Shown piece after piece: positions 13,964 to 63,662 of a stretch of 64,000 bases of DNA (positions are counted from its first letter, which is position 1; the number at the start of each line of letters is the position of its first letter). This DNA comes from Rufibacter latericius (GTDB taxonomy: Bacteria > Bacteroidota > Bacteroidia > Cytophagales > Hymenobacteraceae), in the NCBI RefSeq assembly GCF_003721515.1, contig NZ_RJJD01000021.1, positions 1-64,000 of the forward strand, read 5' to 3'. The notes under the pieces were generated by a model, which made no database searches, was not told where the DNA came from, and was given only the letters and a program-made list of their open reading frames with translations. Made by a program: the position numbers and the translations under genes.

Positions 13964-14237
13964 TTTTCCTTTCTACACGACTAGGTAATAAGTCCATTTT
14001 AGGGGTATTCTCAGCAAAACGGTCTCAAAGAAGAATCTCCTTGTCAAAGCATCTTTGTATCTTCAAAAGAAAAGGGTAAAGCATCCTCCCTCCAGTGTTT
14101 AGGGCAGCAACATTTTGCAATAGTTTGGCCTATCGAGGTAGTGAATGGCTTCTAATCTGCAGCAATCTGCGGGTGCTTCATGGGGAGTAGGTTTTAATTC
14201 AGTAATATTGTAGTTACGTTTCATTAAACTTCAACCC
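13964..14237. other. intergenic stretch with repeat copy
   Basis: No gene. It holds a degenerate copy of the dispersed palindrome near 13995-14030 and the upstream region of the DUF3822 gene. Confidence 0.4.
13995..14030. repeat. dispersed palindrome, degenerate copy
   Basis: Arms read ATTTTAGGGGTATT and AAAACGGTCTCAAAG around a TCTCAGC centre; 32 nt after the monooxygenase stop. Confidence 0.45.
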
Positions 14238-15125
14238 TTGACTACGTCCGTGCCGGCTTTCAGACAGACGCAACGCGTCATTGATGACGCTTTTGACCCT
14301 AGCTATAGTGCCAGCGCTCACCTATACATCAGTTTTGGGGCCCATCGGATTCGTTTGGGAGTGTTGGATGCTCAACGAAACAAGTTTGTGGCTTTGGAAG
14401 ACTACGAGGCCGAAAGGCCTTCTACCGTTGAAAACGCCATTACCTTTTTGAAATCCCTGGGTTCTACCAGCGGCCTGCTGCAGGAAAGAACATGGCAGCA
14501 AGTTCGCATCGGGATTAAGAACCAGCAGTTCACCCTTATTCCAGAGGCCTTATTTGATCTTAATGCCCGCGAAGAGTACCTGAAACTCAATGCAGTGGTA
14601 GATACTGAGCAGGAGCGCATCCACCATCATGAGCACCCCAGGTTAGAGTTGATCAATGTGTTCACCGTGCCGGCCTCCCTTCAAGCCTGGACCGAACCGC
14701 AGTTCCAAAGCAGTCCGGTGGAGTTTGTGCACCAGACCTCTGCCCTGATGGAAGGAACCCTGCACATGGCAGAGCGCAGCACCCGTCCGCACCTCTTCAT
14801 CTACGTAGACAAAAACTATGTAACGCTGGTGGTACTGCAGGGCCTCAAGCTGGAGTTCTGCAACTCTTTCTTCTTCACTTCCTCAGAAGATTTTATCTAC
14901 TACGTGTTGTTTGTTCTCCAGGAAAAGAAAATGAACCCCGACCAGGACCCGGTGACGGTTTGGGGTGAACTGCTCCTGGACTCTGAACTCCACGAAATCC
15001 TGCGGACCTATATCCGGCACGTGCAGTTCGGGAAAAAGCCCACCGGTGTAGGATTCAGCTATCGTTTTGATACCCTCTTCAATCACCAGAACTTTGACCT
15101 GTACAGTCTCCACTTCTGCGACTAA
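14238..15125 (+). CDS. DUF3822 family protein
   Basis: A 295-residue cytosolic protein of DUF3822, a family largely confined to Bacteroidota. Recognisable parts are HLYISFGAHRIRLGVLDAQRNKFVALEDYE (about 25-55), the FTLIPEALFD segment, and a second half beginning HLFIYVDKNYVTLVVLQGLKLEFCNSFFF. Its two lobes resemble actin/PilM-like ATPase folds (from memory of structural work, moderate certainty). The frame starts at TTG 14238; no better ATG precedes the conserved region. In many relatives this gene is beside coaD. Here coaD lies 48 kb away, so the usual pairing is broken. Confidence 0.8.
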   Translation: MTTSVPAFRQTQRVIDDAFDPSYSASAHLYISFGAHRIRLGVLDAQRNKFVALEDYEAERPSTVENAITFLKSLGSTSGLLQERTWQQVRIGIKNQQFTLIPEALFDLNAREEYLKLNAVVDTEQERIHHHEHPRLELINVFTVPASLQAWTEPQFQSSPVEFVHQTSALMEGTLHMAERSTRPHLFIYVDKNYVTLVVLQGLKLEFCNSFFFTSSEDFIYYVLFVLQEKKMNPDQDPVTVWGELLLDSELHEILRTYIRHVQFGKKPTGVGFSYRFDTLFNHQNFDLYSLHFCD

Positions 15126-15130
15126 ATTTA

Positions 15131-15315
15131 TTTAGAGATTGCATGATTGAGTGATTGAGAGAATGGGAGTTTTATGGAGGAGGATTGAAGGGAAGTAAAT
15201 ATCTGGAATAACCTTATAGAGTAAAAAAGGCGCGGCTCGTAAATTTAGATTTACGAGCCGCGCCTTTTTTACTCTATCCTCCAATTCTCTCAATCATTCA
15301 ATCTCTCAATCTCCC
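15131..15315. repeat. nested inverted repeat built from GATTGAGA-like units
   Basis: Outside the terminator hairpin, the left flank (15134-15169) and right flank (15282-15316) are imperfect inverted copies of each other. Each consists of several tandem units close to GATTGAGA or GATTGAGTG. Together with the central hairpin this makes a ~185-bp nested palindrome between two convergent genes. Confidence 0.55.
15216..15277. terminator. bidirectional terminator, 29-bp perfect stem
   Basis: Arms 15216-15244 and 15249-15277 are perfectly complementary with a 4-nt loop. A GC core (GGCGCGGCTCG) is flanked by A6/T6 tracts, so it can stop transcription both ways between DUF3822 and the cytochrome oxidase gene. 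Confidence 0.9.
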
Positions 15316-15319
15316 ATTT

Positions 15320-15952
15320 CTAAAGCGTAAAGAGGAAGATAAAGTAAAGGGCTACCCAAATGGCGCCTAGAAAGTGCCAGTAGCTACGGAGCATCTGTAC
15401 CTGCATGAGGCGGTAGGGGTCACGGTTAAAGATAAGCGAACGAATGGGATCAACTGAAGCCCGGTTCACTTTCACGTACAGATACGAAGCGAACGCCAGT
15501 CCGCCGGCTATGTGTAACAGGTGGAGCGCGGATAACAGGTACAGGAACGTTCCGGCCGGATGTCCGTCAAAGAATACCCGCGCCGAAGCCATTTCATACC
15601 ACGCTACAATCTGCGCCACGGCAAAAACCATCCCCAGCACCAAGGACCACATCAGTCCTTTCTTCATGCTAACCAGATCATCCTGGGCATAAGAACCGGG
15701 CACCTGCTGCATATAGAATCCGCTGAACAGGATGAGGATAGTACTCACGCTGAAAAGCTTGGGGAGGTTGAACGAAGAGGGAGACGGGGCATCACCGGTT
15801 TTGAAGAGGAACATGGCCGTCAGCATGAAGAACAACATAGCCATACCCGCCATGCTGACATACAGCAACATCTTCAAAGGGGGAACCTTCTCTATCTTCT
15901 CGAAGCTGGACATTTTCCCAGCCCCTATTTTATTTTGGTTTTCGGATTTCAT
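15320..15952 (-). CDS. cytochrome c oxidase subunit III (orphan)
   Basis: A 210-residue inner-membrane protein with five hydrophobic helices, of the heme-copper oxidase subunit III family. Family hallmarks include the GTFLYLLSALHLLHIAGGLAFASYLYVKV helix with paired His residues and the C-terminal SYWHFLGAIWVALYFIFLFTL. Length is at the short end for the family (five rather than seven helices). No catalytic subunit (I or II) is nearby, so it serves an oxidase coded elsewhere. An internal ATG (MSSFEKIEK) is an alternative start, 13 codons in. Confidence 0.85.
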   Translation of the reverse strand: MKSENQNKIGAGKMSSFEKIEKVPPLKMLLYVSMAGMAMLFFMLTAMFLFKTGDAPSPSSFNLPKLFSVSTILILFSGFYMQQVPGSYAQDDLVSMKKGLMWSLVLGMVFAVAQIVAWYEMASARVFFDGHPAGTFLYLLSALHLLHIAGGLAFASYLYVKVNRASVDPIRSLIFNRDPYRLMQVQMLRSYWHFLGAIWVALYFIFLFTL

Positions 15953-16141
15953 GATTCAGAAAAATTCATCGGCCCAACATGCTTTACCTGCCTTGTTTAA
16001 TTTACTGCTTCTCTCTTATGTACTACCTTGAAAATTAACAGAATGTTTACAGGTTTCATCACATTTGATGCACTTTTCAAAAAGAACGTTGCATCTACCT
16101 ATTTTAATATTAAATAATCCAGTTTACAGGCAAGTAAGGCG

Positions 16142-18203: not shown

Positions 18204-18247
18204 AGCCGCTTTGAGCCCATTTTCTGGAAAGAAGGCTTAAAGCGGCT
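18204..18247. repeat. dispersed palindrome / terminator after DUF4920 gene
   Basis: Arms AGCCGCTTTGAGCC and GGCTTAAAGCGGCT (one mismatch) around TTTTCTGGAAA, then TTTTG. Well placed to terminate the upstream gene. Confidence 0.7.
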
Positions 18248-19567: not shown

Positions 19568-20139
19568 ATATGGGGGAGTTATACTTTGCACAGGAAATGT
19601 ACCCTTTCGTGTAGAAACCTCAATATACGAACCTAATCTCTAGAATCCTTTTTTTAACCCGATTATCTGAAAATAGACCCAAAGAAACTTAGCCTTCTGA
19701 AACCCTCCAAAATCAATTTACGGGCTTAAAAAAAATTCGGTTATCCTGATCCTCTTCCCATCCACCTGAATAAAACCGGTCCTATTTTACTTGTTAGATG
19801 AGAAATGGATTGATGCAACTAAACCTCAACGGAATTTCACTTTTGGCGAACTTTTAAAACGGAAACCCTTTTGCTTTAGAGATACCCAGCAACTTTCATT
19901 TCAGGTATGTTTTAATAAAAACAGCCGCGAAACACCTAAGTCGCATTTAGGATATTCCACGGGTAAGATTATTTCAAAAAGACGATCCACAAAGAACCAT
20001 CCCCAGCCGAAGAAACAGAACCAGCGGGAAATTCGCTCGTTAAACTCATGGGCAAAGGCCACGCATATTGCCGAAAAAGGATTACTAAAGGTGGGTAGCG
20101 GTGGTTTTGCCTATTTTGATAAGCATTAAAGTACTTCGT
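19568..20139. other. gene-free stretch between divergent genes
   Basis: About 570 bases between the RsbQ-like and SDR genes. A 112-codon frame (19791-20129) crosses most of it but lacks family resemblance and runs close to the SDR start, so I do not call it. TTTTGCCTATTTTG near 20104-20118 may be part of the SDR promoter. Confidence 0.4.
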
Positions 20140-20882: not shown

Positions 20883-20930
20883 AAAAGCGTTTAGAGCCTG
20901 TTTACATGAAAACAGGCTCTAAACGCTTTT
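20883..20930. repeat. dispersed palindrome, perfect copy (bidirectional terminator)
   Basis: 21-bp perfect arms (20883-20903, 20910-20930), core GCGTTTAGAGCCTG, loop ACATGA, A/T tracts on both sides. The best-preserved member of the family, between the convergent SDR and helicase genes. Confidence 0.85.
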
Positions 20931-20956: not shown

Positions 20957-22102
20957 TCAGAAACCTTTCAGGTCAATATCTTTCGTTTCCTTAGTGGGTA
21001 TTACCCGCTTGGTTTGCTTTTGAATGATCTTGAAGTGGTGTGCGTCCTCTGGCGTCACCAGTGTGATGGCATCGCCGGCAGATTCTGCCCTACCCGTCCG
21101 CCCGATGCGGTGCACGTAGTCTTTGGAGGAGCGCGGCAGATCATAGTTGATCACGTAAGGCAAGTATTGCACATCAATTCCGCGGGAGGCCAGATCGGTG
21201 GCCACCAACACGGCTACCTTTCCCTTCTTAAACAAGGCGAGGGCCTCGGTTCGGGCGCCCTGGCTTTTACCGCTGTGCAGCGCAACCGCCTTGATGCCGT
21301 TATTGGCTAGTTTGGTGACCAGGTGATCGGCCCGTTGCGTAGCCGATACAAACACCAGCACCTGTTGCATCTGGTGGTGTTTAATCAAATACCGCAGAAA
21401 CGGTCCTTTGCGCTCGGTTTCCACCAGGTAGGCGATTTCGGAGATAAGGGAAGGTCCGGTGTTCTCTTCCTCTTTGATTTCAACGGTTACCGGCTCATGC
21501 AGCAGCGTTTCCTGTATGGCGTTCACCTTGTTGTCTAAGGTGGCGGAGAACAGCAGATTTTGGCGTCTTTTCGGTAAAAGGGCCAGAATCTGGCGCATCT
21601 CCTCCTCAAAGCCCAGGTTCAGCATTTTATCCGCTTCGTCCAGCACCAGGGTTTCCACCTCAGACAAGTGCACCGCCTTGGAATCTACCAGGTCCAGCAA
21701 TCGGCCCGGCGTGGCTACCAGAATGTCGGTACCCTGCAGTTTCATCATCTGCGGATTAATGGATACGCCCCCGAATACCGCCAGGGTTTTGATATGGATG
21801 GGCATGAGGGCATTGAAAGACAGAAACACCTCCCCTACCTGCAAGGCCAGTTCCCGCGTGGGAACCAGCACCAAGGCTTTGACAAATCGGTTTTTAAAGG
21901 CCCGGTTCGTTTGTATCTTGTCCAGCAGCGGCAAAGCGTAGGCCGCCGTTTTCCCCGAGCCGGTCTGCGCGATACCCAGCAAATCCTTTCCCTTCAGGAT
22001 CTCGGGGATGGCGGCTTGCTGCACGGGGGTAGGTTGCGGATACTTTTGCGCGGCAACTGCTTTTAAAACCGCCGGAGATAAGCCTAACTCTGAAAAGGAC
22101 AT
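20957..22102 (-). CDS. DEAD-box RNA helicase (RhlE-like)
   Basis: A 381-residue ATP-dependent RNA helicase core. Motifs in order: Q motif PTPVQQAAIP, Walker A AQTGSGKT, PTRELALQV, GGVSI, TPGRLLDL, DEAD (VLDEADKML), SAT (LLFSATL), the second RecA lobe with LVFVSATQRAD, VLVATDLASRGID and HRIGRTGRAES. It lacks a long basic C-terminal tail, so it is a short RhlE/CsdA-type enzyme of RNA remodelling or decay. The frame starts at TTG 22114, but ATG 22102 gives the family's normal start MSFSELGLSP. A consensus -7 box precedes it. Confidence 0.92.
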   Translation of the reverse strand: MSFSELGLSPAVLKAVAAQKYPQPTPVQQAAIPEILKGKDLLGIAQTGSGKTAAYALPLLDKIQTNRAFKNRFVKALVLVPTRELALQVGEVFLSFNALMPIHIKTLAVFGGVSINPQMMKLQGTDILVATPGRLLDLVDSKAVHLSEVETLVLDEADKMLNLGFEEEMRQILALLPKRRQNLLFSATLDNKVNAIQETLLHEPVTVEIKEEENTGPSLISEIAYLVETERKGPFLRYLIKHHQMQQVLVFVSATQRADHLVTKLANNGIKAVALHSGKSQGARTEALALFKKGKVAVLVATDLASRGIDVQYLPYVINYDLPRSSKDYVHRIGRTGRAESAGDAITLVTPEDAHHFKIIQKQTKRVIPTKETKDIDLKGF

Positions 22103-22195: not shown

Positions 22196-22678
22196 TTAGA
22201 AACCTTCCTGAATCTGCTGCACCAAAACCTCCGGCGAGTTTACCACATCCAGCTTCAGGGCGTTATGGGGCACCTCCAGGGTTTGCAGTTGAGAGGCAAG
22301 CAGTGCCGCAGGCATAAAATGGCCTTTTCGTTTTCCAAGTCGGCTTTGGAGTAGTTCCTGGTCGCCGTGCAGGTAGACTATTTTAAGCTCGTTTTCCAGA
22401 TTCTGCTGCAAAACCTGGCGGTACTTTTCTTTGAGGGCAGAACACGCCATCACCACTTCCTGTCTGGTTTTTTCGGCTTCCAATAGCAAGTGGTTCAGTT
22501 TGCGGAGCCACTCGGCCCGGTCTTCATCGGTGAGCGGAATTCCTTGACTCATTTTCTCGATGCTCGGGGCCAGGTGATGGTCATCGGCGTCAATGAAATG
22601 CAGCTGAAGTTTCTGGGCCAGCAGCTTGCCCACCGTGGACTTCCCACTCCCGGACACTCCCATGATGATGTAAGACAT
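22196..22678 (-). CDS. gntK: gluconokinase
   Basis: A 160-residue thermoresistant-type gluconokinase, phosphorylating D-gluconate to 6-phosphogluconate with ATP. The P-loop GVSGSGKST is at residues 7-15; then FIDADDHH (gluconate-binding region), KMSQGIPLTDEDRAEWL and the CSALKEKYR motif, all typical of the family. Length is normal. It stands alone without a gluconate transporter, so it probably feeds the pentose phosphate pathway from internally formed gluconate. Confidence 0.92.
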   Translation of the reverse strand: MSYIIMGVSGSGKSTVGKLLAQKLQLHFIDADDHHLAPSIEKMSQGIPLTDEDRAEWLRKLNHLLLEAEKTRQEVVMACSALKEKYRQVLQQNLENELKIVYLHGDQELLQSRLGKRKGHFMPAALLASQLQTLEVPHNALKLDVVNSPEVLVQQIQEGF

Positions 22679-22751
22679 GTTCTTTTGCTTGGTTGAGGAA
22701 ACGCTAAAGGTACTGGCTTCTGTGGAATGAAGCAGCGGCTGGTCAGATTAC

Positions 22752-22789
22752 TTTTCAGGGCAATTTATAAAAATCGGGCTGAAAACAGG
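22752..22789. repeat. dispersed palindrome, degenerate, between divergent genes
   Basis: CTTTTCAGGGCAATTT and AAAATCGGGCTGAAAACAGG. A rare copy lying upstream of genes on both sides (gntK and ligA), so terminator function is unlikely here. Confidence 0.45.
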
Positions 22790-25022: not shown

Positions 25023-25068
25023 AAAGCGTTTAGGAGCTCTTTTTCAGAAAAGAGACCCTAAACGCTTT
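25023..25068. repeat. dispersed palindrome, good copy
   Basis: Arms AAAGCGTTTAGGAGCTCTTTT and AAAAGAGACCCTAAACGCTTT (two mismatches), loop TCAG, then TTT-rich sequence; 115 nt after ligA and a likely ligA terminator. Confidence 0.75.
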
Positions 25069-25215: not shown

Positions 25216-26223
25216 ATGTCTTTCAAGCCACTACCCCTAGAGAAGAATAACGAAGGCAAGGTGCGGACCGTGGGCTTTGAGCTGGAGTTCGCCAACGTAG
25301 GCATCAACGAGTGCGTGGAGATAGTCCAGACCCTGTACGGAGGCGAAGTACAATGGGAAAACCGATTCTCGGCTAAAGTGGCCAACACCCGCTTAGGTGA
25401 TTTCAGCGTGGAGATTGACTTGAAGTTGCTCACCGAGAAGCAGTACAAGCCTTTCTTTGAGAAACTGAACCTGGACATTGAGCACATCCGGCTGGGGCAG
25501 GAAACCCTGGAGGAAAAGATTGACGATGCCCTGGAAAGTGTCATCAAAAAGGTGATTCCATACGAGATTGGGGTTCCGCCGCTTCCCTACCACCAATTAG
25601 AGGAATTGGAGTTATTGCGCCAGACCCTGTACGAGCACCAGGCCAAAGGCACCGAAGCGTTTTTCACCAATGCCTTCGGAACCCACATCAACACCGAAAT
25701 CCCCGACACGGAGCCAGCTACCGTTCTCCGCTATCTTAGGGCGTTCCTGCTGCTGTACCCCTGGCTGCTGGAGGCCGGAGAGACCGATTTCGCCCGCAAA
25801 AACCTGACATCCTTCATCAACCCCTTTCCTCCGGAGTATAACGCTTTGGTGCTGAACCCGTCGTACAATCCCTCGCTGGAGCAACTCATCGATGATTACC
25901 ACCAGTACAACCCAGACCGCAACCGCCCCCTGGATTTGTATCCTTTGTTCTCCTTTTTGCGAAAAGAGCAGGTAAACGCCTATACGAACCTGGGTAGCGT
26001 AAAGGCCCGGAAAACCTTCCATTACCGTCTGCCCAACTCCTGCATCTCAGACCCCGACTGGACTTTGGCCCAGGAATGGAACAACTGGGTAGTGATTGAA
26101 GAACTGGCTAACCGGCCCGATAAAATCACGGAGATGAGTCTGGATTACCTGAACCTTAAGGAAAACACTCTGCTGGGGTTTGAGACTAAATGGTGTAAAA
26201 AAACCGAACAGTGGCTACACTAA
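25216..26223 (+). CDS. amidoligase (COOH-NH2 ligase, Amidoligase_2)
   Basis: A 335-residue member of the glutamine-synthetase-like amidoligase family, predicted to join a carboxylate to an amine with ATP. The metal/ATP-binding start TVGFELEFANVG (Glu22, Glu24) is the family's GFExE motif. A basic substrate-pocket region follows, with the AFGTHINTEIP block near residue 155. The substrate is unknown; comparative-genomic work on this family predicts modified peptides or unusual gamma-glutamyl-like amides. The next gene, a class I glutamine amidotransferase/peptidase, overlaps its end by 13 nt, so the two products surely work together. Confidence 0.85.
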   Translation: MSFKPLPLEKNNEGKVRTVGFELEFANVGINECVEIVQTLYGGEVQWENRFSAKVANTRLGDFSVEIDLKLLTEKQYKPFFEKLNLDIEHIRLGQETLEEKIDDALESVIKKVIPYEIGVPPLPYHQLEELELLRQTLYEHQAKGTEAFFTNAFGTHINTEIPDTEPATVLRYLRAFLLLYPWLLEAGETDFARKNLTSFINPFPPEYNALVLNPSYNPSLEQLIDDYHQYNPDRNRPLDLYPLFSFLRKEQVNAYTNLGSVKARKTFHYRLPNSCISDPDWTLAQEWNNWVVIEELANRPDKITEMSLDYLNLKENTLLGFETKWCKKTEQWLH

Positions 26224-27158: not shown

Positions 27159-27208
27159 CTAGAAGTGAGTTGTTTTCCCATTCTTATTATTGAGCCTTTC
27201 TTTACCCA

Positions 27209-27244
27209 TTTAAAGGCTCCTTTCCAGAAAATGGCTTTAAAGCA
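27209..27244. repeat. dispersed palindrome copy
   Basis: TTTAAAGGCTCCTTT and AAAATGGCTTTAAAGCA around CCAG; directly followed by a separate terminator hairpin. Confidence 0.6.
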
Positions 27245-27280
27245 GAATAGGCGACCCAAGTGATGGGATCGCCTATTCTG
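27243..27280. terminator. terminator between convergent genes
   Basis: CAGAATAGGCGA (27243) pairs with TCGCCTATTCTG (to 27280), extended by CCCA/TGGG with one bulge. Lies between the amidotransferase and porE-like genes. Confidence 0.7.
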
Positions 27281-27375: not shown

Positions 27376-29358
27376 TTACAGGATCTGCAATTCAATACGG
27401 CGGTTAAGCTGCCGGTTTTCTTCTGAGGTGTTTGGCGCCGCAGGTTGGGTCTGGCCGTACCCTTTGGCCTGGAAAATGGAAGCCGGAGCGCCTTTAGACA
27501 CCAGGTATTTCACCACTGCTTTGGCCCTTGCCTCGGAGAGTTTCTGATTCGCGGCGGCTTGGCCCACGTTATCCGTGTGGCCGGCTATTTCCACCTGTAT
27601 CTTAGGATTCGCCTTTAAAAACTGGAAAAGCTTGTCTAACTCCGTCTGTGACTCTGCCCGAAGATCGGCTTTGCCGGTATCAAAAAAAAGGTTGCTCAAT
27701 ACGGCCTTGGCTCCTTTGTTTAGCGGCTGCAAGTAAAAATCCAGCGCCAGCGGAGCCGAAGTGGAGGTGGCGGAGATATGACGGCTTTCCAGTACGTGGC
27801 CCGGGGCGGTCACATACAGGGCGTAACGCTGCTTTTGGTTGACTACAATGGTATAGTCCCCTGATGTTTTATCAGAGCTTACCTGTTGCGAGATCACGCC
27901 TGCAGAATCCAGGTCATAAACCTGCACGGTGGCTTTCAAAGGCTTTTTCGTCTGGGCATCAAAGACGCGGCCTTGGGCAAAAGAAGAGATGGTTTTGCCT
28001 TTCCACAGGTCGGGCACCTCAAACTGCAGCAAAGCCACTTCCACTTTGCCGCCGCCAGCTAATTGGCCGGAGTAATAACCGGTTTTGTTGTCGGGTGAAA
28101 TGAAGATGGAGCTTTCATCACGGTGGGTGTTCAAGGGGTAGCCCATGTTCACGGGAACGCCCCAGCCGTTTTTCTCCCGATTTACCTTAAACAGGTCCAA
28201 ACCGCCCATGCCTTGGAGGCCATCGGTGGCGTAGTACAAGGTGTTTCCGCTGGCATGAAGGAAAGGAGAGTTCTCGCGGCCAGAAGTGTTTACTTTATCG
28301 CCCAGGTTCACGGGGATGCTCCAGTTACCGTCGTCCTGCAGTTTGGTCATCCAGAGGTCTTCACCGCCTTGACCGCCTTTGCGGTCCGAGGCGAAATAGA
28401 TGGTCCGTCCGTCGGCGGAGAGGCTGGGTTGGGAATCCCAGGAACTGGTGTTCACGTTCCGCCCCATGTTCTTGGGTTTGCTCCACTCGTTCCCTTCGCG
28501 GTAGCTGATGTAGAGGTCGCAGGAACCGTAGGAATCCTGGCGGTTGCAGGAGGTAAACACCAGTACGCGGCCATCGCCGGAAAAAGAAGCGGCACCTTCG
28601 TTTAGTTCGGTGTTGATGGCCTCAGAAACCGAGATGGGTGCCTGCCACTGCCCTTCCTTGCGGTAGGCCAGGTACAGGTTTTCATCGTCCTGGGAACCAC
28701 TGCCCTGCCGGGCGGTGAAGAGCAAGGCCTGTTGGTCGGTGGTGAGCACGGGGGAATACTGCAGCTTGAATTGGTTCACACTTTCGCCCAGCGGTTGCGG
28801 CTTGAAATCTACCGGCGTTTTAACGGCTTCCTGAGCAAACTGCACATTATTCAACTGACGGGTAGCATGCTGCGCCTGCCGGCTGCCCTTCTTCCCGAAC
28901 TGCAGGTAATTCTTATAATAAGTTGCGGCCTGGTCGTACTGTCCCCGCTCGAAGGCTAATTCAGCGTAGTTGAAGTAATCGGCTGACCGGCCGGGTAACA
29001 GCGGTAAATGCGCCATGCCTCGGCGGTAAAATTGATAAGCTTCCTCTTCTTTTTGCAGTACCCGGAAAAGGCCCGCAGCCTCCAGATACGCCTCCCCAAA
29101 AGTGGAATCCCGTTTCACCGCTTCCCTGAACGACTCCAAAGCCTTATCAAATTCCCGAGACTTGATGAACTTGATTCCTTCGTCAAAGGCGCTTTGGGCT
29201 TTCTTGTTCGTGGAGCCGCCCGTGGCTTTCTGGGCCACTGCGGGATTCGCGGCACTTTTCTCGCGCTTTGGAGGGTCAAGACCACGGGCCACCTGGCTAT
29301 AAGCTGAAAAGGTCACACCCAGAAAAACAAAAAGGAAAAGCAGCGGGAAACGCGACAT
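27376..29358 (-). CDS. PorE-like OmpA-family T9SS protein
   Basis: A 660-residue envelope protein with a signal peptide (about 1-21). It has TPR repeats (about 50-175), a PD40/WD40-like beta-propeller (about 195-455; repeated 'GxxLYFxSDxxxGxGGxDLW' units), a carboxypeptidase-regulatory-like fold (about 462-545) and a C-terminal OmpA peptidoglycan-binding domain (NLFFDTGKADLR ... GHTDNVG ... LSEARAKAV, about 555-660). This exact order is that of PorE, which ties the type IX secretion machine to peptidoglycan. The Cys lipobox of some family members is not evident. It is co-transcribed with queE (3-nt gap). Confidence 0.8.
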   Translation of the reverse strand: MSRFPLLFLFVFLGVTFSAYSQVARGLDPPKREKSAANPAVAQKATGGSTNKKAQSAFDEGIKFIKSREFDKALESFREAVKRDSTFGEAYLEAAGLFRVLQKEEEAYQFYRRGMAHLPLLPGRSADYFNYAELAFERGQYDQAATYYKNYLQFGKKGSRQAQHATRQLNNVQFAQEAVKTPVDFKPQPLGESVNQFKLQYSPVLTTDQQALLFTARQGSGSQDDENLYLAYRKEGQWQAPISVSEAINTELNEGAASFSGDGRVLVFTSCNRQDSYGSCDLYISYREGNEWSKPKNMGRNVNTSSWDSQPSLSADGRTIYFASDRKGGQGGEDLWMTKLQDDGNWSIPVNLGDKVNTSGRENSPFLHASGNTLYYATDGLQGMGGLDLFKVNREKNGWGVPVNMGYPLNTHRDESSIFISPDNKTGYYSGQLAGGGKVEVALLQFEVPDLWKGKTISSFAQGRVFDAQTKKPLKATVQVYDLDSAGVISQQVSSDKTSGDYTIVVNQKQRYALYVTAPGHVLESRHISATSTSAPLALDFYLQPLNKGAKAVLSNLFFDTGKADLRAESQTELDKLFQFLKANPKIQVEIAGHTDNVGQAAANQKLSEARAKAVVKYLVSKGAPASIFQAKGYGQTQPAAPNTSEENRQLNRRIELQIL

Positions 29359-29361: not shown

Positions 29362-30015
29362 CTACGGGATATTCAGGAATTTATGGGTTTGCAACGAAAT
29401 CCGCCACTTGGGGTTACTTTTCACATACTCCACAATCTGCGGCATCATCTGGTCGGCTTTGCTCCACTCGGGTTGCAGGTACAGGCGGGTTTCAGGTCCT
29501 ACCATGGCGGCATGCTCCTCGGCCCAGGCAAAATCACTTTTGTTGAAGACAATCACCTTCAGCTCACCGGCGTGGGGCAACACACTGGGGTGCGGTCCCT
29601 TGAACTTCTTGGGTGACAAACAAATCCAGTCCCACTGACCACTCAAGGGGTACGCCCCCGAGGTTTCAATGAACGTCTGGATGCCGCGTTTATGCAACTC
29701 AGTTGTAAGGTAGTCCAGGTTATAAAGCAGGGGCTCGCCGCCGGTCACCACCACCGCTTTTCCAGGGTACTGCTCCGCTTGCTGCACAATCCAATCAGTA
29801 TCGGTGAGTGGGTGCAGGTTGGCATCCCAGGATTCTTTCACATCGCACCAATGGCACCCGATGTCGCAGCCACCCAACCGGATGAAATAGGCGGCTTTGC
29901 CCGTATGGTAGCCTTCCCCCTGAATGGTGTAGAAATGTTCCATCAAAGGCAGTTTGGTCCCGTCTTTAGGAACCGTGTGCACCGAGGCAATTTTAATATC
30001 TAAGCTAGCTTCCAA
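29362..30015 (-). CDS. queE: 7-carboxy-7-deazaguanine synthase
   Basis: A 217-residue radical SAM enzyme converting 6-carboxy-tetrahydropterin to 7-carboxy-7-deazaguanine on the way to queuosine in tRNA. The cluster motif is C-x3-C-x2-C in GGCDIGCHWCD, preceded by the family's YTIQGEGYHTGKAAYFIRLGGC; the SAM-binding VVVTGGEPLL follows. The short-form core (compact relative to other radical SAM enzymes) is usual for QueE. No other que genes adjoin it. The downstream porE-like gene is translated after 3 nt, an operon without an evident shared pathway. Confidence 0.95.
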   Translation of the reverse strand: MEASLDIKIASVHTVPKDGTKLPLMEHFYTIQGEGYHTGKAAYFIRLGGCDIGCHWCDVKESWDANLHPLTDTDWIVQQAEQYPGKAVVVTGGEPLLYNLDYLTTELHKRGIQTFIETSGAYPLSGQWDWICLSPKKFKGPHPSVLPHAGELKVIVFNKSDFAWAEEHAAMVGPETRLYLQPEWSKADQMMPQIVEYVKSNPKWRISLQTHKFLNIP

Positions 30016-47932: not shown

Positions 47933-47966
47933 CAGAGAGGAGCCGATGAAAGTTGGCTCCTCTCTG
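47933..47966 (+). terminator. terminator of icmF
   Basis: CAGAGAGGAGCC pairs with GGCTCCTCTCTG across a 10-nt loop, followed by TTTT. Confidence 0.8.
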
Positions 47967-48000
47967 TTTTGGGCCCTTTATTGAAAAAGGGGTAGGAATC

Positions 48001-48030
48001 ACGTTTAGCCTCTTATAAAGTAGGTTTCAC
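48001..48030. repeat. dispersed palindrome, truncated copy
   Basis: ACGTTTAGCCTCTT and AAAGTAGGTTTCAC; short arms and mismatches. Confidence 0.35.
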
Positions 48031-49269: not shown

Positions 49270-49308
49270 ACTCTTTAGGTACCTTTTCATAAAAGGAATC
49301 TAAAAACA
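49270..49308. repeat. dispersed palindrome, first of two adjacent copies
   Basis: ACTCTTTAGGTACCTTTTC and ATAAAAGGAATCTAAAAACA; arms mostly complementary. Confidence 0.5.
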
Positions 49309-49314
49309 CCTGCT

Positions 49315-49352
49315 CCTTTTAGGGCTTTTTCGGAAAAGAAGGCTTTAAACGG
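49315..49352. repeat. dispersed palindrome, second adjacent copy
   Basis: CCTTTTAGGGCTTTTTC and GAAAAGAAGGCTTTAAACGG. Only 6 nt from the previous copy and 12 nt from the end of the gene at 49365. Confidence 0.65.
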
Positions 49353-52102: not shown

Positions 52103-52152
52103 CGCCTTTCGCCTTGGAAAATAAAAATGGCTAAGCTTTCCTGAAGAGGTAG

Positions 52153-52186
52153 ATTTAAGTCCCTTTTCCTGAAAAAGCCCTAAAAC
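52153..52186. repeat. dispersed palindrome, inverted relative to its neighbour
   Basis: ATTTAAGTCCCTTTT and GAAAAAGCCCTAAAAC; its right arm is the start of the terminator stem. Confidence 0.55.
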
Positions 52187-52227
52187 AGAAAGGCCGCTCC
52201 AGTGAGCGGCCTTTCTGTTTTAGGGCT
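52176..52227. terminator. bidirectional terminator, 24-bp perfect stem
   Basis: 52176-52199 pairs with 52204-52227, loop CAGT. The outer 11 bases of each arm (AGCCCTAAAAC) are repeat sequence, the inner part (AGAAAGGCCGCTC) is unique: a terminator built out of a palindrome arm. It ends kup and the M61 gene. Confidence 0.85.
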
Positions 52228-52232
52228 GTTAA

Positions 52233-52267
52233 TTTTAGGCTGTTTCCTGAAAAAGAGGCTTAAAACG
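52233..52267. repeat. dispersed palindrome abutting the M61 stop codon
   Basis: TTTTAGGCTGTTTCC and TGAAAAAGAGGCTTAAAACG; ends one base before the peptidase gene. Confidence 0.6.
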
Positions 52268-54070
52268 CTATTTGGCGCTGGTCCATTTCAGGTAGCTCTT
52301 CTTCTGAACATCTGTGGGCGAGGCGGCCATATCGGCGCGGAACTTCAGGGTCTGATCTTTAAGTAAGGTTACCGGGAGAATCATCAGTTGCCCGCTTCGG
52401 TTAAGCACCAACTCCAACACGTCTCCCACGGCATAGGCCGGAATGGATTTGTTGATGTCATCTGAAACCCGGTAGCCGTTCATGCCCAAGATCTCATCGT
52501 TCACGTTTAAGCCCGCTTGCCAGGCACTACCGTTACGGGTCACCGTGGTCACCACCGGCTTGCCGCTGGCGGTGGAGATACCGGCTCCTAAAAGTGGCTT
52601 GTTCGTGCCTTTGTTTACGTCTGTGAGGGTAATTCCTACGGAGCTGAAATAGGAATTATAGTCCGGAGTCTCTACCCCGTACACGTATCTTCTGAAGAAG
52701 TCATCCATAGAACGGCCGGTGAACTTCTCTATGCCCGCCTGAAACTCTTTCTCTGAGAAGCCTCTTTTCTTTTGCTTGTAGTATTGGTCATACAGGGCTT
52801 TCATGGCATCGTCTAGGGACTTAGTGCCCTTGGTGGCTTTCAGGATCTCTAAGTCCAGCAACATGCCCAGGAGGCCTCCTTTGCTGTAGTACGAAAGGTG
52901 CGTGTTGTAAGAGTTCTCATCGGGCCGGTATTGCTTGATCCAGGCATCGAAGCTGGATTGGGCCGCCGATACTACCTTGTTCCCCGGGGTGTTCTCCACG
53001 CTGGTGATGCTGCTGGCAATGTCGTCCAGGTGCTCGCGCTCTGAGGTGAAGCCCGCCCGGCGCATGATCACGTTGGCGTAGTAAGAAGTGAATCCTTCGG
53101 AGACCCACAGCATTCTGGAGTAGTTTTCCTGGTTGTAGTCAAAAGGCCCTAATTCCATCGGGCGCAGCCGTTTCACGTTCCAGAGGTGGAAGTACTCGTG
53201 GGCAACCAGGTTCAGGAACCCCTTATAGCCTCTCTCGGTGCCATAAGCGGTACGGGTAGCGTGCAGCGTGGTAGAGTTCAGGTGCTCTAATCCGCCGCCG
53301 CCCGCGGGTAGGTTATGGACGATGAACAGGTAGTAGGTTATCGGCAACTCTCCAAAGACCTTAGCAGCCTCTTCGGTGACTTTCTTCATATCGGCGGTGA
53401 GGCGGGCAGGGTCATAGTTGGCATCACCGAACATGGCTACCTCGTGCTTTACGCCGTTGCTTTCAAAAGACAGGATCTCATGGTTCCCGATCTCAAAAGG
53501 TGAATCGGCGAGAATATCATAGTTGGCGGCTTTGTAGGTGTAGGGTTGCCCACTCACGGCCGGAAGCCCCGTAGACACTTTGGCCCATCCTTTGAACGGC
53601 ACCACAGTAACGGTGGAAGGGAGATCTTTATGGCCTTCTGGGTACATGAACACGCTGGTGCCGTTCAGGTAACCGTGGCTGGCATCAACAAAGCTGGTGC
53701 GAACGCTCAGCTCAAAGGCATACACTTTGTATTTTACTGTCACGTCTTTTCCGCCGGTGGCAATGCGCCAGGTGTTCTTATCGATTTTTCCCGCGGAAAC
53801 GGGAGAATTATTCACCACCGCCTGGAAAGCCTCCACGTTTTTTGGAAACTCTCTAATCAAGTAGGAACCCGGGGTCCAGACGGGCATGGTTACGTCCAGG
53901 TTCTTGCCTTTGAAGCCCTCCAGGCGCATTTCCACCTCAAAGTAATGGGTATGCGGCTCAGGCATGGAAAGCCGGTAAGAGATTTTAGGCGCGGCAGCTG
54001 CCGCCGTAGAGAAAGCCAAAGCCAGCAGCACCAGCACTCCCGTTGCCCAGGAATGGATTATTTTTTGCAT
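52268..54070 (-). CDS. M61-family metallopeptidase (glycyl aminopeptidase) with PDZ domain
   Basis: A 600-residue secreted zinc peptidase. After the signal peptide (about 1-27) come an N-terminal beta-sandwich (ISYRLSMPEPHTHYFEVEM, TMPVWTPGSYLIREF) and the catalytic domain with GAMEN-like GGGLEHLNST and the zinc motif VAHEYFHLWNVKRLRP, whose second glutamate lies in LWVSEGFTSYYA. A C-terminal PDZ domain covers about 475-580 (LGAGISTASGKPVVTTVTRNGSAWQAGLNVNDEILGMNGYRV). The family prefers N-terminal Gly or Ala residues. It is probably periplasmic or surface-bound. Confidence 0.93.
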   Translation of the reverse strand: MQKIIHSWATGVLVLLALAFSTAAAAAPKISYRLSMPEPHTHYFEVEMRLEGFKGKNLDVTMPVWTPGSYLIREFPKNVEAFQAVVNNSPVSAGKIDKNTWRIATGGKDVTVKYKVYAFELSVRTSFVDASHGYLNGTSVFMYPEGHKDLPSTVTVVPFKGWAKVSTGLPAVSGQPYTYKAANYDILADSPFEIGNHEILSFESNGVKHEVAMFGDANYDPARLTADMKKVTEEAAKVFGELPITYYLFIVHNLPAGGGGLEHLNSTTLHATRTAYGTERGYKGFLNLVAHEYFHLWNVKRLRPMELGPFDYNQENYSRMLWVSEGFTSYYANVIMRRAGFTSEREHLDDIASSITSVENTPGNKVVSAAQSSFDAWIKQYRPDENSYNTHLSYYSKGGLLGMLLDLEILKATKGTKSLDDAMKALYDQYYKQKKRGFSEKEFQAGIEKFTGRSMDDFFRRYVYGVETPDYNSYFSSVGITLTDVNKGTNKPLLGAGISTASGKPVVTTVTRNGSAWQAGLNVNDEILGMNGYRVSDDINKSIPAYAVGDVLELVLNRSGQLMILPVTLLKDQTLKFRADMAASPTDVQKKSYLKWTSAK

Positions 54071-54797: not shown

Positions 54798-54809
54798 TTT
54801 AACCCTTCC

Positions 54810-54847
54810 TGTTTCAGAGCTGTTTTTCAGAAAAGAGCCTTAAAAGA
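54810..54847. repeat. dispersed palindrome after NlpC/P60 gene
   Basis: TGTTTCAGAGCTGTTTTTC and AGAAAAGAGCCTTAAAAGA, 12 nt after the stop codon. Confidence 0.6.
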
Positions 54848-55053
54848 ATCAAAAACTGGTAAACTGCTGGTGCGGTTTAAGTCAGATGAACCTTCGGATT
54901 CTCCATCCTTGGAAGAGATTATATATTTTCAATCCCTGAACTGTATTTTAAAAGGAGCATTCCTCCTGACTTAAAGATTCGAAAATTCTTTAAGTGCAAG
55001 TTTTAAATAGTTGAGGGTCAGCACTTACCGCAATGAGCCCCGTAGTTTTCGGG
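54848..55053. other. intergenic stretch, nothing recognised
   Basis: About 200 AT-rich bases between the repeat copy and the candidate RNA's terminator. No gene or clear signal. Confidence 0.4.
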
Positions 55054-56952: not shown

Positions 56953-57010
56953 TGGCTGCTTCTGAGACCCAAAAGGAAATGATCCACTCCTCTGAGGGTA
57001 ACAAAAGCTG

Positions 57011-57046
57011 CTTTCAGGCTTCTTTTAGGAAATGTGGCGTAAAACG
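57011..57046. repeat. dispersed palindrome, degenerate copy
   Basis: CTTTCAGGCTTCTTTT and AAATGTGGCGTAAAACGG; 58 nt upstream of the Gre-like gene and 94 nt downstream of the M1 gene's end. Confidence 0.4.
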
Positions 57047-57140
57047 GTAAAGAAGCAGTTCAGATGAACTCGCAAAGCTTTAAACTGATAAACTAAACTT
57101 TTGTTGGGAAAAAACAATCAAAAAAAGAAGAATATTAGTA

Positions 57141-60457: not shown

Positions 60458-62608
60458 ATGAGAAAGAAAACATTGCTTTGGGTCATTGTACTGATGACGA
60501 TCTCTCTGGTAGGGCTGATCGGGTTCCAGGTCTACTGGATCCACCATGCAGTACTGATGGAAGAGGAGGTTTTTGACCGGAACGTGAACGATGCGCTGCA
60601 ACAGGTGGCCCGCCGGCTGGAAACCAAGGAAGCGGTGTACTACCTGAATGAGAAAGCGCCCCAGATCAGGGCCGCTGCCTTATCACCAGAAAACCCTACC
60701 GCTTCAGAACAAAAGCAGCCCGCCACAGCCAAACTTGTCAGAAAAGAAAAAAAGCAAATCAAGGTAACCATAGCGGAACCAGCTTCTGCCCCTGCAAAAC
60801 CTGCACAGGCCAGTCCCCATCCCGCTCCTACCCGGCTTTCTTTGGCACCGGTAAAAGTAATGGTCACCCAATCAGAGGCCCTGGCGATTTCCAAAGCACA
60901 GGAATTGCAAGGCAGAACCTACATTAGAGGAGCCCGGCCAGCTTCGCCCCAGGGAGACCACTTAGAGATCTTCGGGGAAGGTGCTACTGATTCGGTGGTC
61001 ATCTGGAAAATACTGGCTTCGCAAAAACCTCAGATAGATTCCTTCATCAAGAAAAGTAACTCCCGCCATTTCCAGCGGGCAAAAGTAGATTCTGCGTTCG
61101 TGCTAAGGATGAGCCACGATTCGGTTACCAGAAGAAAGCAACACGAGTTGCTCCGCCTGAATCCAATAAACATTAAGTCGGTGAATGTGAGGGGAAAACT
61201 AATTGATGTATTCACCGATACTTTAGTAAGCCAGAACCTTTGGCAGGCGATAACCCTTTCCTCAGATTCCACCTTAAACCGCCTTACCCGCTATTATCCC
61301 GCCATCAAAAGCTCTGGGCGTACGGCGGCCTCGGTAGTATATGGTTCTACCAAAGGGCATCCGGCTCCGCCTGCCCCAATAGCTCCGCCGCAGCCCAAAC
61401 TGGTATCTGAGGCATCGGAACAAGTCAGCCGCATAAAACCGCAGGAGAAAAACAAGCACCAGAAAGCCGAAGCTAAAGCCCAGCACCTGAACAAGGTGAT
61501 GCAGCAGATGGCGGTAGAATACGTCCGGAAAGAGATGCCCTTGGAGGAACGGCTGGAGCAACTGAATGTAAATCAACTGCTCACAGATGAGTTGGCAAAC
61601 CACCACATCTCTTCTCCTTATACGTGCACCTTGGAAAGAGCCACCAGTTCCAGTTACCCCAACATCATTTTGGCTTCGTCTAGTGACGTGCTGCTCCCTA
61701 ACAACCTGCGGGAAAATGAATACGCGGTGCGCCTTTTCCCCAATGATGTCATGACGGCTCCGGGCTTTTTAATGCTGACCTTTCCAGACCGTAACGTGTA
61801 TGTGTGGCAGAGTTTGCTCCTCCCGTCAGCTATTTCGGTGCTGTTCACGCTCATCATCATCCTGACGTTCTCCTTCACCCTCTACACCATCCTGCGGCAA
61901 AAGAAAATCTCAGAGATCAAAAACGATTTCATCAACAACATGACGCATGAGTTCAAGACGCCCATCGCTACTATTTCGTTGGCCCTGGATGCCCTGGTAA
62001 ACCCCAAAGTACGGAAAGACGAGGTTCGGGTAGATTATTACGCCCGCATCATCAAAGACGAGAACAAGCGCATGCACCAGCAGGTAGAAAAAGTGCTGCA
62101 AACGGCCCAGATGGAGCGCAAAACCCTGCAGTTGGCCTTTGAAGAAGTAGACGTGCATCAACTCATCAGGAAAGCCGCCGAGCCGTTCCAACTTCATATT
62201 GAGCAACGCCAGGGAAATCTGGACCTGAAACTGGAGGCACGTACTCCGTATGTCTGGGCTGATCCCGGCCACTTAGCCAATATGATCGGCAACCTGCTGG
62301 ACAACGCGAACAAGTACTCACCCAACGCCCCTAAGATCGTCATCCAGACCACCACCATTGCCAAAGGGCTGCACATATCGGTGGAGGATCAGGGCACGGG
62401 CATGTCGCGGGAGGCGCAGAAAAGGGTGTTTGACAAGTTCTACCGCGTACCTACCGGCAACGTGCACAACGTGAAAGGCTTCGGGCTGGGGCTGAGTTAC
62501 GTTAAAACCATGGCCGAAGCGCACGCAGGCACCATTCACCTGCGCAGTGAATTAGGCAAAGGCAGCAAGTTTACGCTTTGGCTCCCTTTTCAGAAAAACG
62601 TCAGTTAA
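60458..62608 (+). CDS. two-component sensor histidine kinase
   Basis: A 716-residue inner-membrane sensor. TM1 is at about residues 8-28. A very large periplasmic region (about 29-450) is partly Ala/Pro/Gln/Lys-rich and disordered (60-130 and 280-345). TM2 (about 453-480) leads straight to the kinase core, without a HAMP domain. H box: NNMTHEFKTPIATI with His497; N box: MIGNLLDNANKYSP; G boxes: VEDQGTGMS and GFGLGLSYV. It phosphorylates the response regulator coded 29 nt downstream. The stimulus is unknown. Confidence 0.93.
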   Translation: MRKKTLLWVIVLMTISLVGLIGFQVYWIHHAVLMEEEVFDRNVNDALQQVARRLETKEAVYYLNEKAPQIRAAALSPENPTASEQKQPATAKLVRKEKKQIKVTIAEPASAPAKPAQASPHPAPTRLSLAPVKVMVTQSEALAISKAQELQGRTYIRGARPASPQGDHLEIFGEGATDSVVIWKILASQKPQIDSFIKKSNSRHFQRAKVDSAFVLRMSHDSVTRRKQHELLRLNPINIKSVNVRGKLIDVFTDTLVSQNLWQAITLSSDSTLNRLTRYYPAIKSSGRTAASVVYGSTKGHPAPPAPIAPPQPKLVSEASEQVSRIKPQEKNKHQKAEAKAQHLNKVMQQMAVEYVRKEMPLEERLEQLNVNQLLTDELANHHISSPYTCTLERATSSSYPNIILASSSDVLLPNNLRENEYAVRLFPNDVMTAPGFLMLTFPDRNVYVWQSLLLPSAISVLFTLIIILTFSFTLYTILRQKKISEIKNDFINNMTHEFKTPIATISLALDALVNPKVRKDEVRVDYYARIIKDENKRMHQQVEKVLQTAQMERKTLQLAFEEVDVHQLIRKAAEPFQLHIEQRQGNLDLKLEARTPYVWADPGHLANMIGNLLDNANKYSPNAPKIVIQTTTIAKGLHISVEDQGTGMSREAQKRVFDKFYRVPTGNVHNVKGFGLGLSYVKTMAEAHAGTIHLRSELGKGSKFTLWLPFQKNVS

Positions 62609-62637
62609 ACGATCCTTTATTCTAACCGCATATTCCC

Positions 62638-63375
62638 ATGACTGCCACTCCTGACACCCGCCTTCTACTGGTTGAAGATGATCCCAACTTTGGGATGGTT
62701 CTGAAAGACTATCTGGAGCTGCACGATTACAACGTGACCCTCTGCACCGATGGCCTACAAGGCTTGCGCATGTTCCAGAAAGAGGCGTTTGACGGTTGCA
62801 TCCTGGATGTCATGATGCCGGTCAAGGACGGATTCTCCCTGGCCGCCGATATCAAAAAAGCAAACCCCGCCATGCCCGTGATCTTCCTGACGGCCAAAGC
62901 CATGAAAGCCGATATGCTGGAAGGATTCAGGATTGGAGCTGATGACTACATCACCAAACCCTTTGACTCTGAGATCCTGCTCTGCAAGCTTAAGGCCATT
63001 CTGCACCGTAAAGCAATCCCGGCAGCTCCTGAGAAACCTCTGGCTACTGAGTATCAACTGGGCACCTATCATTTCCATTTCAAAACCCGCCTCATCACGC
63101 GTGGACCCGAAACCCAGAAACTTTCCCCAAAAGAAGCCGAGCTGCTCCTGCTGTTATGCCAGTACCTGAATGACGTACTTCCGCGCGAGGTTGCCCTCAG
63201 TAAGATCTGGAAAGACGACAACTATTTCACCGCCCGCAGCATGGATGTCTTTGTCACTAAACTCCGCAAATACCTTAAAGCAGACCCAAGCGTAGAGATC
63301 ATCAACGTACACGGCAACGGTTTCCGGCTGGTAGCACCTGTTATGGATGCTCAGGTTTTAACCCCCTCTTTATAA
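62638..63375 (+). CDS. OmpR-family response regulator
   Basis: A 245-residue DNA-binding regulator. The receiver domain (about 8-120) has the acidic pair LVEDDPNF, the phosphate-accepting Asp in GCILDVMMPVKDG, the Thr in VIFLTAKA and the Lys of ITKPFDSE. The C-terminal winged helix (about 145-240; LSPKEAELLLLLCQYLNDVLPREVAL, SMDVFVTKLRKYLKADPSVEIINVHGNGFRL) is that of the OmpR/PhoB class. Partner of the upstream kinase. The likely operator is the heptamer array before the operon, giving autoregulation. Confidence 0.94.
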   Translation: MTATPDTRLLLVEDDPNFGMVLKDYLELHDYNVTLCTDGLQGLRMFQKEAFDGCILDVMMPVKDGFSLAADIKKANPAMPVIFLTAKAMKADMLEGFRIGADDYITKPFDSEILLCKLKAILHRKAIPAAPEKPLATEYQLGTYHFHFKTRLITRGPETQKLSPKEAELLLLLCQYLNDVLPREVALSKIWKDDNYFTARSMDVFVTKLRKYLKADPSVEIINVHGNGFRLVAPVMDAQVLTPSL

Positions 63376-63406
63376 AAACTGCCGATTTTCAGCAATTCAC
63401 CAGTCA

Positions 63407-63452
63407 AGCGTGTTTAGGGCCTATTTTGTATAAAAAAGGCCCTAAAAACGCT
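63407..63452. repeat. dispersed palindrome, good copy after response regulator
   Basis: AGCGTGTTTAGGGCCTATTTT and AAAAAAGGCCCTAAAAACGCT around a GTAT centre, then TTTTG: likely terminator of the kinase-regulator operon. Confidence 0.75.
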
Positions 63453-63624
63453 TTTGCTTTACAATAGAGTAGGTTCTACCCCTCTATTTGTGCCATTGAA
63501 GGCAAACGGGAATTGCAGGGGCAATCCCTGGTGGTTGCCCTTTGGCCTAAGGAATCGTGTTAAGGGGAACCACAAAGAATTGTCCCTACATTATGGTCCA
63601 CTTTGAGAAAAACCAACAAATTTG

Positions 63625-63662
63625 TTTTGACGGTATTTTCCCTAAAAGGGGTTTGAAACGGG
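63625..63662. repeat. dispersed palindrome, degenerate copy
   Basis: TTTTGACGGTATTTTCC and CTAAAAGGGGTTTGAAACG; ~100 nt upstream of coaD. Confidence 0.4.

Follow-up and report, generated by a model that had tools for sequence, protein, structure and literature searches.

The stretch of Rufibacter latericius DNA analysed here, positions 1 to 64,000 of contig C14 (NZ_RJJD01000021.1; hereafter the window), carries numerous copies of a 40-bp imperfect palindrome that recurs throughout the genome and is referred to below as the dyad site. These sites are symmetric, conserved at the level of the duplex and in their position, limited to the genus (Rufibacter, here including Sabulibacter), organized in species dialects, and located at the boundaries of transcription units. 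The reading that we favour, to which we assign an even chance, is that they represent a recognition site, present in about 3,300 copies, for a putative Rufibacter-specific DNA-binding protein, which would act at these boundaries.

The source genome consists of 5.67 Mb in 23 contigs, and its LigA shares 94-96% identity with the nearest named records, all of which are Rufibacter strains. Sites were scored with a symmetric two-arm weight matrix (19-nt arms and a short centre, mostly of 2 nt) learned on 1,659,600 bases, comprising the window and 80 stretches from five contigs, while gene coordinates and intergenic classes were obtained with a simple gene caller of our own, trained on the codon usage of this genome. 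In these 1.66 Mb, 966 copies score at least 16 bits compared to 3 in the same DNA reversed, and 849 score at least 20 bits compared to none. Extrapolation by length yields about 3,300 copies per genome, i.e. a copy every 1.7 kb, which together make up 2.3% of the genome. With a strict pattern, picked after the matrix had been built, 1,732 matches are obtained genome-wide compared to 13 with the reversed pattern. The window itself contains 39 sites of at least 16 bits (32 of at least 20 and 26 of at least 24 bits), 10 of which lie in called genes. The reversed window contains none, 20 first-order Markov resamples contain 0-1 each, and a model trained solely on DNA outside the window recovers the same 39 sites, again with none in the reversed sequence.

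A preliminary description of the window had noted about two dozen copies and had proposed a scan of this kind against a control. The family is real and far commoner than was noted, with copy numbers well above the control. From the 14 coordinates named at the time, 13 lie within 4 bp of a model match of 24-40 bits, while at 16142 no match reaches 16 bits. The first 13.9 kb, thought to be devoid of copies, contain six sites of at least 16 bits, three of them of at least 24 bits (at 7812, 11194 and 11481). In agreement with the preliminary description, no named family was found in the literature searched (mostly papers outside subscription journals), nor did Rfam return one for the window at gathering thresholds. 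The main text of a survey of spaced motifs, as far as available, makes no mention of Rufibacter, Hymenobacter or Bacteroidetes (PMC5217627).

Anatomy, arm pairing and placement of the dyad site

The consensus of the dyad is YGTTTT-N5-YGTTTT-C-NN-G-AAAACR-N5-AAAACR. Conservation resides in four T/A tracts (TTT-N8-TTT-N6-AAA-N8-AAA) and not in a stem; the cores of the tracts are near-invariant (94-97%) and spaced by 11, 8 and 11 bp, with weaker conservation of the G preceding the T runs and of a GGSCY segment between these runs. The information content amounts to 15 bits per arm and 30 bits per site in the source genome, values that the 16-bit threshold raises to some degree. At a helical repeat of 10.5 bp the vector sum of the tracts is 3.27 of 4; they are thus almost in phase with the helix, and the DNA of the site is probably bent as a result. 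Orientation by transcription leaves 397 tandem sites symmetric (smallest column p 0.034 of 20), and GU mismatches are no commoner than AC mismatches (1,527 vs 1,733), so that there is no signal of an RNA strand. The small overall covariation and the lack of an Rfam match in the window likewise do not point to a structured RNA.

If the stem were under selection, the inner columns of both arms should co-vary, an expectation that the coding and divergent copies fail: in 112 divergent and 168 coding copies, the inner arms pair as often as expected from shuffled arms or slightly less often. For 88 copies, 67.5% of the cells are paired compared to 64.7 ± 0.7% after shuffling, with none of 500 shuffles as high, and the covariation score is 0.219 compared to 0.180, an excess that is small but real. 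Most of the covariation excess stems from a tail of copies with 8-9 of 9 inner pairs, here called fully paired, which number 53 among 863 where about 6 are expected. These comprise 20 convergent and 32 tandem copies and one at a stretch edge, with none among the 280 divergent or coding copies. The preliminary description held that both arms had changed together to keep the stem; this applies to the fully paired minority, while divergent and coding copies show no such excess. In the 15 congeners, with 20-107 sites sampled in each, the difference between observed and expected inner pairing ranges from -0.01 (G131) to +0.10 (G136) and is slightly positive in 12.

With respect to genes, 952 of the 966 copies fall into tandem (440), convergent (186) and divergent (123) intergenic regions or into coding sequence (203), the remainder being located at stretch edges. 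The density is 3.96 copies per kb in convergent, 2.53 in tandem and 1.59 in divergent regions compared to 0.15 in genes, which bears out the earlier statement that copies lie mostly between genes. Among regions of at least 45 nt, a site is present in 145 of 187 convergent, 367 of 631 tandem and 104 of 201 divergent regions. The mean number of copies per tandem region reaches a plateau with length (1.04 at 300-500 nt and 1.03 above), and convergent regions longer than 200 nt hold 1.3-1.4 copies each. Site density is highest between convergent genes and in the roughly 100 nt next to stop codons, with a peak 20-40 nt after the stop (8.6 per kb) and a low density within 60 nt upstream of starts. 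The 3'-end excess is kept in 84 tandem gaps of at least 420 nt, where 35 sites lie in the first 90 nt and 37 in the next 300. Convergent gaps of at least 150 nt carry a site in 11 of 12 cases in congener G144 and in 13 of 14 in G138.

Placement of this kind could also be explained by intrinsic hairpin termination as the primary function of the sites, which we consider quite improbable. Besides the 3'-end excess, 52 of the 53 fully paired copies are located at 3' ends, and U-tract hairpins are commoner at 3' ends with a site than at those without (convergent, 151/234 vs 43/90; tandem, 139/328 vs 58/227), divergent control strands giving 26/386. However, 810 of the 863 copies are not fully paired, about half of the divergent regions contain a site, and among the 290 site-bearing 3' ends that have a U-tract hairpin no more than 200 nt from the stop, the hairpin stands apart from the site in 202 and overlaps it in 88. 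As the hairpins are mostly found beside the sites, the sites accompany the ends of transcription units and do not replace terminators. The paired GC-rich stem with U-tract that characterizes an intrinsic terminator is not a feature of the family, only of the fully paired or hairpin-overlapping minority. The earlier suggestion of a partial recruitment as terminators thus suits a minority of 3'-end sites, which are fully self-complementary and probably double as intrinsic terminators, and does not suit most copies.

Orthologous positions, species dialects and distribution

Conservation of position was assessed in 201 orthologous intergenic pairs between the source genome and 15 congeners, covering 43 distinct regions of the source genome. 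The relative has a site in 91 of the 108 pairs in which the source genome has one, compared to 9 of the 93 in which it has none. Counted by distinct region, the 23 regions with a site are occupied in a mean of 0.88 of the relatives and the 20 regions without a site in 0.07. In 57 one-to-one pairs the median shift relative to the gene end is 2 bp, and 86% lie within 10 bp compared to 21% for random placement. The spacer columns in 50 of these pairs are 53% identical compared to 41% for unrelated sites of the source genome, i.e. they have largely turned over. Five weak coding sites were followed in 41 orthologue alignments (up to ten congeners), none of which contains a site-length insertion, while two show 3-nt indels. 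Instead, the scores of the orthologues fall from 18-24 bits to strongly negative values through substitutions, which shows that sites can come and go by point mutation.

These observations bear directly on the reading of the preliminary description, in which the palindromes resemble repetitive extragenic palindromic (REP) sequences or miniature inverted-repeat transposable elements (MITEs) moved by a REP-associated tyrosine transposase (RAYT) or another transposase. The sites share with REP sequences and bacterial interspersed mosaic elements (BIMEs) of the GTAG and CGTC families the short intergenic 3'-end palindrome, the high copy number and the occurrence of some hairpins, as described in the available part of PMC3733652, which also reports CGTC repeats in Bacteroidetes. 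Furthermore, genes with a match to the transposase domain Y1_Tnp are present in 15 of the 16 genus genomes, and near-identical copies do occur in G144. However, the Rufibacter sites differ from REP and BIME in that positions are kept across the genus, most copies lack stem conservation, and no tag, mobility or RAYT link was seen. No near-identical copies were found among 863 copies in the sampled 29% of the source genome, where the closest match between any two is 36/40 and the median best match 30/40. Neither a GTAG nor a CGTC tetranucleotide is apparent in the base frequencies around 128 arm hits, the arms being symmetric, and no conserved flanking tag was seen at the sites. Mobilisation by a RAYT was rejected, as the Y1_Tnp counts (0 in G142, 1 in the source genome and 1-6 in the other congeners) follow neither the number nor the uniformity of the sites, those of G142 being very uniform. 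The mobility of the palindromes is therefore not supported, and the REP/MITE-like reading, already contradicted, is very improbable. More generally, not every dispersed palindrome is a REP sequence or a terminator, and covariation and orthologous position should be tested first.

The sole Y1_Tnp gene (REP-transposase-like) found in the source genome is a 145-aa open reading frame (ORF) at L009:1321-1758 on contig C17 (E 1.8e-6); most Y1_Tnp frames of the congeners are longer, about 180-200 aa. This ORF is not flanked by sites on both sides: there is none in the 1.3 kb upstream, and two lie about 540 and 720 bp downstream.

Consensus and stringency of the site are species specific and range from 24 to 53 bits, with 27 in G131, 45 in G142 and 53 in G144. 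A typical arm is TCGTTTTTGGGCTGTTTTC in G138 and CCGTTTTCGGGCTCATTTC in G144, and the copies of G144 hardly differ from one another (median best match 37/40, maximum 40), most of them being palindromic. In a midpoint-rooted LigA tree G144 groups with G138 and G142 with moderate support (88/92). Among 26 orthologous regions of G138 and G144, 11 have a site in both, 12 in neither and 3 in one alone, and the two sites of a one-to-one pair differ in position by at most 15 bp in five of eight cases, by 20 bp in one and by more than 70 bp in two. Since positions are largely shared, the sampled complement of G144 has been re-spelled, mostly in place. A secondary loss of sites in G144, which has only 80 hits to the strict pattern, was rejected, as 86 sites of at least 20 bits, in a different dialect, are present in 200 kb.

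Re-spelling in place could also result from concerted evolution, in which older copies would be replaced by a newer version through a copying process, for example the conversion of short tracts or the action of a single-strand nuclease on hairpins. The near-identical and mostly palindromic copies of G144 fit such a process. However, the copies in the source genome are highly diverse, and Y1_Tnp does not track homogeneity (G142 with no gene and 45 bits; G131 with four genes and 27 bits), which makes this explanation unlikely.

Sites are found in all 16 genus genomes, at 0.35-0.74 per kb in the sampled pieces compared to 0-3 sites in the reversed controls. The model, applied to sequence only, finds at least about 150 matches in each of the 16 congeners and 0-4 in 28 relatives outside the genus. 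Similarly, among loci fetched via LigA, 10 of 10 from Rufibacter or Sabulibacter contain 9-14 sites each (reversed, 0-1), while 41 others contain 0-1. With the strict pattern, 188 genomes from five other genera of the same family give 0-34 matches each, about equal to the reversed control. The eight genomes of sister genus g2 sum to 206 matches vs 154 in the control, and three g2 genomes searched with the model, not including G001, give 0-1. Among 211 genomes of the order outside the genus that were searched by pattern, a clear excess over the control is seen in two, G306 (181 vs 39) and G329 (34 vs 1), and a few others are slightly above it, e.g. G298 (13 vs 4). A de novo count of gapped palindromes, which covered individual 20-kb pieces from four further genera of the family as well as 21 additional loci, found nothing comparable except a local repeat in Arcicella; this count is insensitive, having also missed the motif in 60 kb of G145 and G131, which have sites, and its reversed control is uninformative for palindromes.

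The matches listed for G306 and G329 have the look of other repeats. In G306 (family f5, genus g28; 72% complete), they are spread over many contigs and, among the matches listed, are mostly of the type GTTTTGGGCAAAA...TTGCCCAAAAC, possibly representing another abundant palindrome family. In G329 (f21, g27), the matches listed are near-identical (GTTTTTAGGTTGTTTTGTATAAAAAGCTTGCAAAAT) and dispersed on C1, and look like the ends of a repeated element. A single strict-pattern match in the sister genus, G001:C1:218562-218597, resembles a true Rufibacter-type site. In Arcicella aurantiaca, the short palindrome ACAGACTNNAGTCTGT occurs ten times in the 22-kb locus around ligA, and some of the copies carry one change. 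Seven copies form an irregular cluster (L132:18766-18998) with AAAAAGTAAC between them, and the others are located at 7374, 7408 and 20608.

A putative binding site and its main rival

In the mechanism that we propose, a dimer or tetramer of a sequence-specific protein would bind the four nearly in-phase tracts and bend or wrap the DNA. The bound site would then form a two-way boundary separating adjacent transcription units, either as a roadblock to read-through or as a barrier to supercoiling. Coherent changes of dialect would track changes in the DNA specificity of the protein, and a minority of 3'-end sites would have become fully self-complementary hairpins acting as intrinsic terminators. 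The protein reader, the bending or wrapping of the DNA and the separation of units are inferred. A broader version is a chromosome-wide punctuation, in which a dedicated protein at about one 40-bp site per transcription-unit boundary insulates the units, and protein and thousands of sites shift specificity together in each species. This version is tentative, and we give it clearly less than an even chance. If a protein does bind, the genomes of the genus would offer a natural series for studying a regulator that co-evolves with thousands of sites, and the system might be the first in bacteria to set sequence-specific boundaries between transcription units.

Several points weigh against a binding site. 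No binding protein was found, and the HU and ParB families do not mark the genus. HU/IHF was rejected as a genus-specific binder, with PF00216 present in 1-2 copies in congeners and 1-3 in relatives (59 genomes, all positive), as was ParB/Noc, with PF02195 occurring exactly once in each of the 16 congeners, which alone were searched. A filter for small basic non-membrane proteins passed 32 of 1,352 called genes (29% of the genome), with no evident binder among them. The putative boundary role is drawn from position alone, and in divergent regions the number of copies keeps rising with length, to 1.02 in the longest class. Site density is even (Fano factor 0.60 over 41 full 40-kb bins, two partial bins being dropped), but this partly reflects the presence of one site per intergenic region, as the coefficient of variation of the gaps (0.815) equals that of a permutation of occupied regions; in the same permutation, gaps below 500 bp are depleted (8 vs 21) and gaps of 2-3 kb enriched (157 vs 122). 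The tract cores of 50 orthologous pairs are 94-99% identical, a value partly built in because both sites must pass the model, and unrelated sites of the source genome reach 88-95%. Moreover, 29% of the source genome was read, and the other genomes in pieces. Finally, 30 bits per site (53 in G144) far exceed the calculated 10.7 bits or so needed to specify 3,300 sites in 5.67 Mb, an excess that is easier to reconcile with molecular drive or copying than with plain selection for binding.

The excess information, together with the same kind of dialects in DNA uptake sequences (DUS), makes an uptake-like drive the strongest rival, with a minor but appreciable chance. The site would be a self tag: a competence receptor would favour site-bearing DNA, and transformation with this bias would raise the number of sites and make them uniform in place. 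The sites do show the thousands of copies, species dialects and evolution in place of uptake sequences, and the even density and the absence of sites from a foreign-looking island agree with such a tag. In the sampled DNA, 11 stretches longer than 7.5 kb lack a site. One of them, a 22.7-kb stretch (C6:20340-43016), contains a cluster of trypsin/EAD1, GAP1 and double-GTPase genes, most of which the codon-trained caller missed; recently acquired DNA seems to be free of sites, judged from this one of the 11 stretches. A ComEC domain was found in the source genome, but ComEC is widespread (10 of 14 control genomes) and does not discriminate. Other features fit an uptake tag less well, namely the length of 40 bp and the symmetry, the plateau near one copy per tandem region and the 3'-end preference even in long gaps, and no receptor candidate is at hand. 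Should the site prove to be an uptake tag, it would be without precedent in Bacteroidota and longer than any other, as far as we know.

The site can also be compared with known systems. DUS and the uptake signal sequences (USS) of Pasteurellaceae are uptake sequences, and DUS carries more information than needed. In the available part of a study on Neisseriaceae, DUS number about 940 to 5,900 copies, with dialects following phylogeny (PMC3630211), a likeness to the thousands of copies and species dialects seen here. DUS is, however, a 10-12-mer without a dyad, whereas the Rufibacter site is 40 bp long, symmetric, mostly intergenic and present about once per gene boundary. HIP1 of cyanobacteria is likewise a very abundant, lineage-limited palindrome, but measures 8 bp and is linked to methyltransferases, according to the part of the source available (PMC4390886), while the Rufibacter site has 40 bp and four separated tracts. 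The copy number and information of the Rufibacter site are far higher than those of the sites of nucleoid proteins (IHF/HU, Noc/ParB), and neither HU nor chromosomal ParB marks the genus. The latter sites resemble it in being dyads with phased A-tracts, and the spacing of its GTTT-N6-AAAC centre is like that of parS. For a binding-protein site of 30-53 bits with about 3,300 copies, confined to one genus as far as searched and coherently re-spelled, we know of no precedent.

Sites of the 64-kb window and side observations

The sites of the window carry no strand, and their scores are given in bits from the two-arm model. In the first part of the window, weak sites are located at 3383-3422 (17.6), at 4500-4539 (18.9) within called gene 4025-4564 and at 8181-8220 (19.4) within called gene 7887-8234, besides stronger ones at 7812-7850 (25.0), 11194-11233 (26.6) and 11481-11520 (25.5). 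The site at 13994-14033 (24.5), 3' of gene 12818-13963, lies in a region occupied in 4/4 relatives compared, and the one at 18206-18245 (36.3) is present in 6/6. The sites at 19648-19687 (24.0) and 19896-19935 (30.2) are both in divergent position, followed by a fully paired site in a convergent region at 20887-20926 (37.2), present in 8/10 relatives compared.

Around ligA, one site is found in the divergent region upstream (22749-22788; 27.6) and one 3' of the gene (25026-25065; 35.1), the latter present in 7/7 relatives compared. Sites within genes in this part of the window are those at 21554-21592 (19.4; gene 20957-22102, ten orthologues without insertion), 22378-22416 (19.1; gene 22196-22678, eight orthologues compared), 25940-25979 (18.0; gene 25216-26223, seven orthologues compared), 28166-28205 (24.3; gene 27376-29358, without insertion, four relatives scoring 21-24 and four others -20 to -0.7) and 32550-32589 (21.8; gene 31924-32889, in 2/8 relatives). 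The site at 27206-27245 (33.5) in a convergent region is followed by a separate hairpin (27243-27280), and that at 34205-34244 (36.6), at the stop of gene 32886-34205, by a hairpin at 34245-34280. In a divergent region, the site at 30037-30076 (39.3) lies 21 nt from the called start of minus-strand gene 29362-30015 and is found at the same place (18-20 nt) in 8/8 relatives.

Further downstream, sites are located at 35242-35281 (20.9), 35341-35380 (36.0; fully paired), 40169-40207 (29.2), 42899-42938 (32.3), 43614-43652 (32.3) and 44347-44386 (33.7), with a weak one at 40826-40865 (16.7) within the doubtful called gene 40802-40978. The site at 46605-46644 (30.7) lies within a gene encoding a B12-binding/MeaB/mutase fusion (44467-47874; Pfam). 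The remaining sites are those at 47964-48002 (22.2), 49270-49309 (21.8), 49313-49352 (29.0), 52150-52188 (27.0), 52229-52268 (35.2), 54809-54848 (39.9), 57008-57047 (31.6), 62573-62612 (23.2; over the end of gene 60494-62608), 63410-63449 (31.2; fully paired) and 63622-63661 (33.2).

The site-free 22.7-kb stretch on contig C6 includes an operon-like array (L011:2335-12766) of Endonuclease_NS, Trypsin_2/EAD1, GAP1-N1, DO-GTPase1, DO-GTPase2 and GASH domains, which is a foreign-looking, GTPase-centred island of the conflict type. In the window, a perfect 29-nt inverted repeat without the site motif is located between convergent genes at 15216-15277 and is probably an ordinary bidirectional terminator. 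At 52150-52268, a near-perfect hairpin (52173-52230) is flanked by two dyad sites, and its 27-nt arms contain site-like sequence. This hairpin looks like an inverted duplication by template switching, and elsewhere the genome has similar pairs of arms that face in opposite directions at a distance of 46-50 bp.

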